Shown here: one piece after another, positions 30,648 to 34,389 of the stretch
Position numbering within the stretch: the stretch's first letter is position 1
How the letters are laid out: every line of letters starts with the position of its first letter
NCBI GenBank assembly: GCA_022451235.1
Contig: JAKUOA010000002.1
Span: 76,229-124,231, forward strand
DNA from: Candidatus Thalassarchaeum sp.
GTDB lineage: Archaea > Thermoplasmatota > Poseidoniia > Poseidoniales > Thalassarchaeaceae
Length of the DNA stretch: 48,003 nt
Reading direction: 5' to 3'
The notes under the pieces: model-generated
Told to the model about the DNA's origin: nothing
The model's database searches: none
What the model saw: only the letters and a program-made list of their open reading frames with translations
Position numbers and translations under genes: made by a program

Positions 30648-30711
30648 TGGGCGAGCAATGGTTAAACCAATCCAATGCACGTCAAGACCTACCCTTGAGG
30701 GTGCATCCGCC

Positions 30712-33408
30712 ATGTCCGATACTCCACCCCCTCCTCCGGGAATGCCTCCCATACCCCCTCCACCGCCTCCGCCTGGCTTCGACAAAGGTAACGAGGAGGA
30801 TGAGGTTAAAATTGCAATAGACAATGAAGGCGATGATGGTTCTGAGATGAATAATATCCACCAATTAGTCGATGAATTACCCTCTTTGGCAGATATGGAA
30901 AGCCCTCCGCCACCGCCTCCTGGATTGGATACACCTCCGCCACTTCCACCAGATTTTGACACTCCTCCTCCCCCTCCACCAGGATTAGATGCAATCGAAG
31001 AGGAAGGAAATTGGGATGTCGATGAACTAGAAATTCAATCATTCGATGATACACTTTCATCTCTAGAGCAGATGAATGAAGAAGAGGTTGTTGAAGAAAT
31101 AAGTGTAGATTCAGACGAAGCAACTCAGGATTGGAATGCCGCTCTGGATCAAGTATTTTCAGAGGAGGGGGATAAACAACCGGAATCCGATGGAGAAGAA
31201 GTTCCTCAATTACCTCTATCTAGTAATCTTCGACCTTCAGCCGAAGTAGATTCTATTCCTGGTGACAAATTATACGTCACTTTGAAGGAGACCGAAGAAT
31301 CAGTACTAAATCCAGATGGCACAGTCCGACAACAATCCATTGATGGTGAATTAATTCTAAGAAATTCAAGTCGAAAAGATCGTGCATGGGATATTGAAGT
31401 AATGCTTCAAAATACTGCTTCGACAGATATAGGTGGTGGCGCAATAACTGTCCGTGAGTTAGACGCAACCCAAACTAGCAACCTTCCATACACAGCATCA
31501 GGCCCTAGAATGATGATTCTCAAAGAGCATATCGACACAGAACCTGAACGGCCACAGGAGTCTAGTCTTTCAATGATATATTCCGAACATGCACAGGAGG
31601 TCCTTATTCGTCTTAGTGTTGAAAATATAGCACCAGTAAGTTTGAATGATGTTGTGGTTAGAAGGGCACTTCCTGAAAATTTTGAATTGTCGGAAGGTCC
31701 CGAATATGACATAAATGACGGTGAATTAATTTGGCACATTGGCCGACTTCCTGTCGGAGAGAGCGCTTCGTTAGAGATACTCCCAAGAGTGACTACTAGG
31801 ACGATTCAGCGCTTCGCTACTGGCGCAGTTAATGCTGCATATTCTTGTGAGGCGACGGTCTCAAGAGCACAATTTGATTCGGTAAAATCTCGAGCTCGTC
31901 AATTTGGTTATGTTTCACCTAAGGAAGATGACCGACCTGACATATTCCACTGTAAGTTGGTAGTCGAAAATCGTTCTTCATTCGTTGTCAGTCTATCAGC
32001 TGCAACTGTTTGGTTAGCGGGTCGCAGTGAGCCTTTTTTGGAGGTGGAAGATATTCGTGAAGATATCCCTCCCGAAGGTCTTTGGGACTCAATCGAGAAG
32101 AGAATTGAAGCAATTGATAAACCAAATTTCACCCATGAAATCAATTATTCAATTTTGCCTAGGGTAAATGTCGAATCCAATGGTATTTTGGAGTTAAAGG
32201 AAAGAAGTTTCAAAGTACTGGATGCGGAGGTAAACAAACAGTACAGTATTTCCCGAATACGTTCCTATGTGGAATCAGATTTAGAATGCATATCTGTAGT
32301 TGAAAATACCGGTTCTGCACCAATTAACGTAATGCGTTTACTCGATGATATTCCGGGTATTTTCAACCCACCCGCAATTAATCAAGTACGAATTGAAATG
32401 GAAGGCTCTGATCTAAACGATGACCAGTACAGAATAGAGGTCGTAGATGGAACTCAACTAGAGGAGCAATTGATATCACCAGATTCACAAGGTCATGCTC
32501 TAAGAATTACTGTAGGCACATCTGCGCCTCTCGGATTGCAACCTGGAAAATCATTGACCATAACTTATCCACTCCATGCCGCCGATCCTTCTCCTCAAAA
32601 TAACAAACTCGCAGCCCCAATTCGTGCTGATTTCAGTATGGAAAGATTCGGCCCCGTTGCTACGCGCCATTGCAATCGTGCGCCACTAATTCGTGTGGTC
32701 CATCGCCGTAGAAGATTCTCAACTGGAAAAGAAGTATTCCCAGCTGCTGGTCCAGGCCGCTATGAAATCCTCTTAATGTTCCAAAATGACTCGGATAGTG
32801 CTCTAGAGGATTTGTCACTTCACGATGTAGTTCCCGGTACATTCAACATCGAGAAATCCACGGTTCGTTCAAATCAATCTGGCGAGAGAGTTGTTGATTA
32901 TAGTAAGGAATCTGCTAGAGAGGGGACTCATGTGACATGGCCAATTGGTAGAATCGAAAAGGATGAACGAATAGAAGTTGTTTTTGAAATTCAAGGAGAT
33001 TCAGAGAGCGAATACAAGGTAGCGGATGCTCAAGATTACCACGGAGCCACTTTCGGAGACGAAGTAGATGAAGAACCGAACTTACCTGAATGGGCTGATG
33101 AAGCTAGTAGAATCACTTTAGAAGCCGCTGATGTAGAACCTGAAATAGATCTCGACCCTCAACTTGAGGATAAAGGGGGAGAAGAAAACGGCTCAAATAC
33201 AGATATTGGTGTCGACTTATCTACACCCCAGGTGCTGAATGTTGAAGCGAGAACTGAGGAAAATGAGGAGAATATTGACGAATCCAATGTCGATGAAGGA
33301 GAGGTACAGAAACCAACAATAGTTACTCCGGATGTTTGCCCTGTTTGCGGCACAGAGGCTTCAGTTGGTGCATCGTCCTGCGAAACTTGTAGCTTCCAAT
33401 TCAGTTAA
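30712..33408 (+). CDS. Large cytoplasmic-looking protein: polyproline N-terminus, DUF11-like domains, zinc ribbon
   Basis: 898 residues from ATG 30712 (MSDTPPPPPG). Residues 1-110 hold several PPPPPG and PPPPPPG runs separated by acidic segments; about 110-190 is acidic linker. Then a run of beta-sandwich units resembling DUF11/conserved-repeat domains, for example LPENFELSEGPEYDINDG with ELIWHIGRLPVGES and, later, VVPGTFNIEKSTV with HVTWPIGRIEKDERIEV. An acidic linker follows, and a C-terminal zinc ribbon CPVCG with CETC ends the protein. No signal peptide or membrane helix is seen, although DUF11-like units usually sit outside the cell. The proline runs would demand aIF5A for translation. 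Function unknown; a multivalent scaffold is my best guess. Confidence 0.7.
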   Translation: MSDTPPPPPGMPPIPPPPPPPGFDKGNEEDEVKIAIDNEGDDGSEMNNIHQLVDELPSLADMESPPPPPPGLDTPPPLPPDFDTPPPPPPGLDAIEEEGNWDVDELEIQSFDDTLSSLEQMNEEEVVEEISVDSDEATQDWNAALDQVFSEEGDKQPESDGEEVPQLPLSSNLRPSAEVDSIPGDKLYVTLKETEESVLNPDGTVRQQSIDGELILRNSSRKDRAWDIEVMLQNTASTDIGGGAITVRELDATQTSNLPYTASGPRMMILKEHIDTEPERPQESSLSMIYSEHAQEVLIRLSVENIAPVSLNDVVVRRALPENFELSEGPEYDINDGELIWHIGRLPVGESASLEILPRVTTRTIQRFATGAVNAAYSCEATVSRAQFDSVKSRARQFGYVSPKEDDRPDIFHCKLVVENRSSFVVSLSAATVWLAGRSEPFLEVEDIREDIPPEGLWDSIEKRIEAIDKPNFTHEINYSILPRVNVESNGILELKERSFKVLDAEVNKQYSISRIRSYVESDLECISVVENTGSAPINVMRLLDDIPGIFNPPAINQVRIEMEGSDLNDDQYRIEVVDGTQLEEQLISPDSQGHALRITVGTSAPLGLQPGKSLTITYPLHAADPSPQNNKLAAPIRADFSMERFGPVATRHCNRAPLIRVVHRRRRFSTGKEVFPAAGPGRYEILLMFQNDSDSALEDLSLHDVVPGTFNIEKSTVRSNQSGERVVDYSKESAREGTHVTWPIGRIEKDERIEVVFEIQGDSESEYKVADAQDYHGATFGDEVDEEPNLPEWADEASRITLEAADVEPEIDLDPQLEDKGGEENGSNTDIGVDLSTPQVLNVEARTEENEENIDESNVDEGEVQKPTIVTPDVCPVCGTEASVGASSCETCSFQFS

Positions 33409-33411
33409 TTT

Positions 33412-33434
33412 CGGCTCACATTACATGTGAGCCG
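33412..33434. promoter_or_regulatory. Perfect 10-bp inverted repeat, TAC loop, before the DUF106 operon
   Basis: CGGCTCACAT-TAC-ATGTGAGCCG, starting 4 bases after the preceding stop and 40 bases before the DUF106 start. It may be an operator, a processing hairpin or a barrier between transcripts. No T-run follows, which argues against a plain terminator. Confidence 0.6.
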
Positions 33435-33474
33435 CGCCGAATCCTTCAATTGAGAGCCTTAGAGACGAAGTCAC

Positions 33475-34389
33475 ATGGCGGAGCCTGCAGGACAAGGCGA
33501 TGCTCAAAGTCAGGCGGCGTTGGGCATGATGGGTCCTATGTTCGTTTTACTTGCTGTCATGTTATTACTAACCTTCAATCCTGGACTGCGGTCATTAATG
33601 GCGGATTCAGCGGCAACAGTTATCGAGCCGACTATACCATTCCACTCAGAATATTTCGTACCCACTGTTTTCATCATTGGGTCTTCAATTATGATTGTCA
33701 ATACTGTAATTCGTGGATTTTTTATGGATCCTATGACCCAAGTTCACATCGGCCATAGAAATAAACAGATTTCCAAACAATTGAGAGAGGCGCAAGGCGA
33801 AAGAGATACTGCAAGAGCCGACAAGATGCGTCGTCTGCAAATGGAGTTAATGCCAGACCAGATGGCTATGCAATCTTCTATGATGAAACCAATGATGTTT
33901 ACAATCATCTTCATTATCGGTATTTTTAGTTGGATGGCTGAATCAGCCGCAGACTTCAGGGTTGGTTACGTAAGTCTTCCATGGCAACCAATGTGGGGAA
34001 TGATGGATACGATTTGTTGGATTTTTCCTGCTTGGGTAGTCACCTATATTGCAATGAGCGCTCCACTAGGTAGAATTATTGATCGTCATATCAAAATAAT
34101 TCGCTTTGGAAGGCACCCATTGGTTTTGGAAGGTCTGCCAATTCCCGAGCCTCTATTACATTTATTAAAGGATGAAGAAAAGAAACCATCGGCCACAACT
34201 CGTCGGGGTCAGAGACGTTCACGTGATGGACCTCGGAAAAAAGGAAATGCAGAATCTAGGCGTGGAGGTAATCTACATGCTGCTCCTCCGAAAATCGGCA
34301 CCGCCTGTCCAGAATGTTCCTCGACAATGGTAAATCGAACTAGTTCAGGTCGATTACGTTGCAGTGTCTGCCGTTATGAGTGGAGGTGA
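33475..34389 (+). CDS. DUF106 membrane protein (archaeal Oxa1/EMC3/TMCO1-like insertase)
   Basis: Predicted membrane-protein insertase of the YidC/Oxa1 superfamily. 304 residues. Hydrophobic segments at about 17-34, 60-80, 141-160 and 180-198; between the second and third is a charged coiled coil (QISKQLREAQGERDTARADK) followed by a Met-rich MAMQSSMMKPMMF stretch, the usual order for DUF106. The C-terminal extension is basic and ends in a zinc ribbon (CPECSSTMVNRTSSGRLRCS then VCRYEW), an addition to the basic fold. Position next to cmk and cbf5 is the known euryarchaeal arrangement (secY-adk-DUF106-cmk-cbf5), here without secY and adk. Its stop codon lies inside the cmk ribosome binding site. 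Confidence 0.88.
   Translation: MAEPAGQGDAQSQAALGMMGPMFVLLAVMLLLTFNPGLRSLMADSAATVIEPTIPFHSEYFVPTVFIIGSSIMIVNTVIRGFFMDPMTQVHIGHRNKQISKQLREAQGERDTARADKMRRLQMELMPDQMAMQSSMMKPMMFTIIFIIGIFSWMAESAADFRVGYVSLPWQPMWGMMDTICWIFPAWVVTYIAMSAPLGRIIDRHIKIIRFGRHPLVLEGLPIPEPLLHLLKDEEKKPSATTRRGQRRSRDGPRKKGNAESRRGGNLHAAPPKIGTACPECSSTMVNRTSSGRLRCSVCRYEWR
34382..34389 (+). promoter_or_regulatory. Ribosome binding site of cmk, overlapping the DUF106 stop
   Basis: GGAGGTGA, four bases, then TTG 34394. It matches the expected anti-Shine-Dalgarno (TCACCTCC) fully. Its last three bases are the DUF106 stop, so translation should be coupled. Confidence 0.8.

Follow-up and report, generated by a model that had tools for sequence, protein, structure and literature searches.

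A proline-armed, zinc-ribbon DUF11 protein found in nearly all Poseidoniales may be a cytoplasmic adaptor

Proteins with DUF11 domains mostly occur at the cell surface. Amongst the described systems that involve proline-rich sequence, plant PSIG1 recognizes PPGF of SMG7 through its GYF domain, and mutation of the glycine abolishes this binding (PMC5657617), while a profilin and polyproline system has been described in Asgard archaea (PMC8410842). Polyproline motifs are also known to stall ribosomes, for which a regulatory role has been proposed in Escherichia coli (PMC5811046). Here, we analyzed a stretch of 48,003 nucleotides from Candidatus Thalassarchaeum sp. (hereafter the window), an archaeon of the order Poseidoniales, which encodes a protein that combines a DUF11-containing core with an acidic proline-rich arm and a C-terminal zinc ribbon (Table 1). 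As far as we found, the family to which this window protein belongs is apparently undescribed in the literature.

Table 1. Coordinates of the features of the window-protein gene and its downstream neighbor (positions within the window).
Feature	Position	Strand	Remarks
Whole gene	30712..33408	+	898 aa, ATG start
N-terminal arm, acidic and proline-rich, residues 1-168, presumed disordered	30712..31215	+	composition; prolines retained despite synonymous change
PPPPPGM..PPPPPPPGF, first two PPG-hydrophobic motifs	30724..30777	+	sequence
PPPPPPGL motif	30904..30927	+	sequence
PPPLPPDF, degenerate unit	30934..30957	+	sequence
PPPPPPGL motif, further copy	30964..30987	+	sequence
Conserved core, residues ~178-785, with roughly five beta units that follow an Ig/DUF11-like pattern	31243..33066	+	alignment and hhalign
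DUF11 domain PF01345	31594..31884	+	E 8.3e-9, above cut-off; pLDDT 70-85 in part of model
Acidic linker	33067..33336	+	lacks the EF-hand-like segment of many family f2 members
C-terminal zinc ribbon CPVC-x10-CETC	33337..33405	+	all four Cys retained in f1, f2 and g2; missing in f11/f31
Intergenic inverted repeat CGGCTCACAT-TAC-ATGTGAGCCG	33412..33434	+	kept in most genus-g1 loci
EMC3/TMCO1-like (archaeal YidC) insertase, basic tail and C-terminal Zn ribbon	33475..34389	+	PF01956 E 9.2e-17

The initial annotation of this gene had described PPPPPG runs in acidic surroundings, DUF11-like beta units and a C-terminal zinc ribbon in a protein devoid of a secretion signal, an architecture it considered unusual, and each of these points is borne out. 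The protein opens with MSDTPPPPPGMPPIPPPPPPPGF and carries runs of five, seven, six, three and six prolines at residues 5, 15, 65, 75 and 85; its first 168 residues comprise 35 prolines, 46 acidic residues (D+E) and 3 basic residues (K+R). The start, MSD[T/E]PPPPPG, is conserved across the window's genus, and MSD, MSE or MTD starts recur in homologs of both Poseidoniales families. An in-frame upstream ATG at 30658 was considered as an alternative start and rejected, as it is conserved only in close relatives. A missed signal peptide or membrane segment had been named as a finding that would speak against the annotation; hydropathy analysis revealed none. The maximal 19-residue Kyte-Doolittle mean of the window protein is 1.13 and falls within the core, the means over the first 60 residues all lie below -0.39, and no family member tested contains a hydrophobic segment (top 19-residue mean 1.5).

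The DUF11 match at residues 295-391 scores 36.2 bits against a curated Pfam cut-off of 24.6 and is found in 25 of 25 diverse family members, so that by this one domain, as judged from sequence, the window protein is a DUF11 member. The matching unit, D2, is related by profile to D5 (hhalign E 2.4e-6) and D4 (E 2e-4); the other pairs of core units are weak by hhalign, and D1 and D3, which show no detectable relation, are placed by pattern alone. In an alignment of 25 diverse members from two families the core, about 620 residues long, has a mean column identity of 58%, while the arm diverges. The ribbon cysteines (residues 876-893) recur in both families, the ribbon's Pfam zinc-ribbon matches lying below cut-off, and many family f2 members have, ahead of the ribbon, an additional EF-hand-like segment, DxDxNxYLKK, whose EF-hand matches likewise stay below cut-off.

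AlphaFold models computed from 14 close sequences reached a pLDDT of 41 for the whole core and 60 for its last two units, and at this low confidence both are interpretable no further than as a beta fold, with no readable domain surface. Foldseek searches with these low-confidence models returned beta-sandwich proteins, including alpha-2-macroglobulin receptor-binding and adaptor mu-homology domains (E 5e-4 to 1e-2), and some family members gave sub-threshold Pfam matches to PF00928, PF02883 and PF17973 (E 1e-4 to 1e-2). We would read these matches, as far as the models allow, as a shared Ig-like fold and not as kinship; membership in an adaptor or coat family was considered and is left unproven, the signals being sub-threshold. 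PDB sequence searches with the window protein found nothing, and no relative was found amongst viral contigs.

Homologs were searched at several taxonomic levels. The order-wide search identified them in 219 of 293 Poseidoniales genomes, including 30 of the 35 with a completeness of 90% or more, and in 20 of 22 genera spanning both families; nearly all Poseidoniales thus have the gene, in one copy per genome. In a class-wide profile search 21 of 25 genera had it, the matches listed all falling inside Poseidoniales, and a phylum-wide search retrieved relatives from the Thermoplasmatota families f11 and f31 with E-values down to 1e-89. The same architecture, which the initial annotation had proposed to look for in other Poseidoniales, is present at about 50 loci in both families. 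Homologs lacking the proline region, which it had named as evidence against a scaffold, exist as well and weaken that reading: genus g2 (L085-L088), which shares its family with the window's genus, has core and ribbon and no arm, and the f11/f31 homologs (L089-L095, about 670-694 aa) consist of the core with a different N-terminus, without proline arm or ribbon. Because such arm-less homologs exist, we consider the core the functional heart of the protein and the arm an accessory. The core probably came first, with ribbon and arm added in Poseidoniales and the arm lost again in g2, an order proposed from comparison of these sequences. The arms of family f2 are longer, with APPAPPGM-type units, and in most of them prolines never stand three or more in a row, though PP and PPG are frequent. 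The strong aIF5A dependence that had been predicted therefore fits the window's genus but does not hold for the family.

Codon alignments of the arm, in which gap placement in low-complexity sequence somewhat favors proline-proline matching, retain 32 of 36 proline sites between the window and locus L007, 19 of them with another codon, as well as 72 of 131 non-proline sites; across the more diverged congeners as a set, 29-32 of 30-38 arm prolines are kept, about half to two thirds of these with a different codon, as are about 43-57% of the non-proline positions. Many synonymous changes have accumulated at kept prolines, and we therefore conclude that in the window's genus the arm is selected as protein, which is how the proposed multivalent proline arm is upheld.

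The most regular feature of the arm is the residue after PPG. It is hydrophobic (F/L/M/I/V/Y) in 145 of 147 cases in 39 f1 members and in 107 of 110 cases in 18 f2 members (252/257 or 98% when pooled), against a background hydrophobic content of about 20% in the same arm regions and none of 23 PPGs in 310 neighboring proteins, whereby repeat duplication and shared ancestry make all these counts, the 23 controls included, non-independent. Within the window's genus the residue swaps between M, F, L, I and Y, and its hydrophobicity survives substitution and is shared by two families with differing flanking prolines. By sequence analogy, the motif matches the PPGF-type ligand class of eukaryotic GYF domains. 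The WW and SH3 ligand codes are essentially absent, with PPxY in 1 of 57 members and PxxP with basic flanks in 6 of 57, the arms containing 0.7-2% K+R. Amongst the polyproline-binding folds that the initial annotation had suggested searching for, WW gave no match above cut-off in the window's genome, the signal below cut-off having a stop inside it. Profilin was found in 0 of 20 genomes, with no control genome matching either, and GYF_2 (PF14237) in 0 of 20, with controls matching below cut-off only.

FtsY and the proteins of loci L067 and L073, all from the window's genome, likewise contain PPPPPG with F, L or M next. FtsY, the SRP receptor, has PPPPPPGF[EQ] within the N-terminal region throughout genus g1 (L068/L139-L149); in FtsY of family f2 this motif was not found. 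The L067 protein (1435-2220) is acidic, 262 residues long and without a Pfam match, with the motif and a proline-rich N-terminus, and it looks orthologous to a protein of the other family (L113, 1333-2364), the two, ~260-340 aa in length, being similar by eye. In L073 the motif, PPPPPG-hydrophobic, belongs to a membrane-protein tail, the protein being Ig/cadherin-like, and the C-terminal tails of the L073 and L105 membrane proteins both have PxGWTMEQWxYYG near the end. L121 (1456-2172) encodes a cationic polyproline-lysine protein with C-terminal cysteines.

The gene occupies a fixed position in Poseidoniales: GPN, read in the opposite direction, is followed by the window-protein gene, EMC3/YidC, cmk and cbf5, all co-oriented. 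Synteny extends over the entire block between UbiA and cbf5, unrelated genes included, and with so many other genes keeping their places, adjacency argues only weakly for a common function. In 44 of 45 orthologs (L004-L103) the EMC3/YidC-like protein has a basic linker or tail, possibly a ribosome-binding tail, and a zinc ribbon at the C-terminus; the remaining one is cut by a contig end. Upstream of EMC3 lies a hairpin followed by CCGAATCCTTCA (33412-33448), possibly a terminator plus promoter; the CCGAA element is conserved in much of family f1, and g5 loci have a hairpin of different sequence at the same intergenic place. As a general promoter motif CCGAANNNTTCA was rejected, since the window shows no enrichment for it (17 matches, 14.5 expected). 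At several f11 loci (L089, L091-L094) the core homolog is divergent from an NFACT/RqcH-like gene, and at several it is convergent with a signal-peptidase-like gene, read by eye without Pfam support. None of the f11/f31 neighbors read is EMC3.

We tentatively favor, with somewhat less than even confidence, the interpretation that the window protein is a cytoplasmic adaptor or scaffold, in which the core is an ancient binding platform and the arm an accessory, multivalent display of PPG-hydrophobic motifs. Order-wide conservation at one genomic position, a core conserved over two families while the arm diverges, the lack of hydrophobic segments in members tested, protein-level selection on the arm prolines, and the PPG-hydrophobic counts of both families together with the same motif in FtsY, L067 and L073 all argue for it, as does the binding of PPGF by PSIG1, which makes this motif class a proven ligand in another setting. 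The missing arm in g2 and f11/f31, the missing GYF_2 in 20 genomes, WW matches confined to below cut-off, the f2 FtsY that lacks the motif, the origin of repeat units by duplication and the low confidence of the models count against it. An alternative, which we judge on the unlikely side, is that the arm is only an entropic spacer or solubility brush holding the core off surfaces, with no specific reader. Its quick change in length and sequence, low complexity, high acid content and absence from g2 all suit a spacer, which nevertheless leaves unexplained both the hydrophobic residue after PPG in two families and the synonymous change at kept prolines. That residue would equally not be needed if the early polyproline runs, the first two of which (P5 and P7) begin at codons 5 and 15, were a translational pause sensed via aIF5A that sets gene expression; polyproline stalling and the role proposed in E. 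coli make this conceivable, but runs of at least three prolines are missing from most f2 arms and g2 has no arm at all, and we consider it very improbable.

Two further explanations concern the place of action. The protein could be an accessory factor of membrane-protein insertion that works beside EMC3/YidC and FtsY and tethers ribosome, receptor and insertase. Of the Poseidoniales loci read that extend beyond the gene, almost all have EMC3/YidC adjacent on the same strand; g1 FtsY has PPPPPPGF genus-wide, several f11 core genes adjoin the signal-peptidase-like (by eye) and NFACT/RqcH genes, and the basic tail and ribbon of EMC3 face an acidic linker and ribbon in the window protein. The synteny of unrelated genes from UbiA to cbf5, however, lets adjacency say little, in part of f1 a hairpin and a conserved CCGAA-type element separate the two genes, which may therefore not be co-transcribed, and neither the motif in f2 FtsY nor EMC3 beside the f11/f31 genes was found, which leaves this explanation distinctly doubtful. 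Export to the surface by a non-classical route would agree with the usual location of DUF11 proteins, yet members tested have no signal or anchor, and the C-terminal Cys4 ribbon and acidic proline-rich arm fit it so poorly that it is scarcely tenable.

If the adaptor interpretation is correct, the core would perform the primary, ancient binding job, and the arm, added in Poseidoniales as a flexible display, would recruit a putative cytoplasmic reader, not necessarily a GYF domain. The ribbon might be a further small binding module, and the arm would tune avidity or reach while being dispensable, because genus g2 does without it. Of the multivalent cytoplasmic scaffold initially proposed, the missing signal and membrane segments and the maintained multivalent arm thus still stand, but the arm-less homologs reduce the arm to an accessory. 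A broader and unlikely extension is that Poseidoniales own a cytoplasmic short-motif network based on PPG-hydrophobic, in which a putative reader domain would link scaffold, SRP receptor and membrane-protein tails in the manner of eukaryotic GYF adaptors. The analysis defines a near-universal, uncharacterized gene in an archaeal group that ranks among the most abundant of the surface ocean. It locates DUF11/Ig-like repeats, as far as sequence shows, within the cell and supplies, with PPG-hydrophobic, a motif precise enough to be tested. Should a reader exist, this would constitute a proline-motif signaling or scaffolding system in non-Asgard archaea.

Compared with known systems, the window protein resembles PF01345 DUF11/TIGR01451 repeat proteins in one unit past the Pfam cut-off and two more by profile; those proteins are typically at the surface, whereas it has no signal or anchor and carries a zinc ribbon and proline arm. 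These two elements are probably Poseidoniales additions when set against the core-only f11/f31 homologs. The core may bear a weak, sub-threshold likeness to the beta-sandwich folds of adaptor mu-homology and alpha-2-macroglobulin receptor-binding domains (PF00928, PF02883, PF17973). With the Asgard profilin system the likeness would lie in archaeal polyproline recognition. The arm itself resembles the ligands of SMY2/PSIG1-type GYF domains in its repeated PPG-hydrophobic motif, PPGF included, but differs from those systems in being archaeal and in having relatives in which no GYF_2 domain was found.
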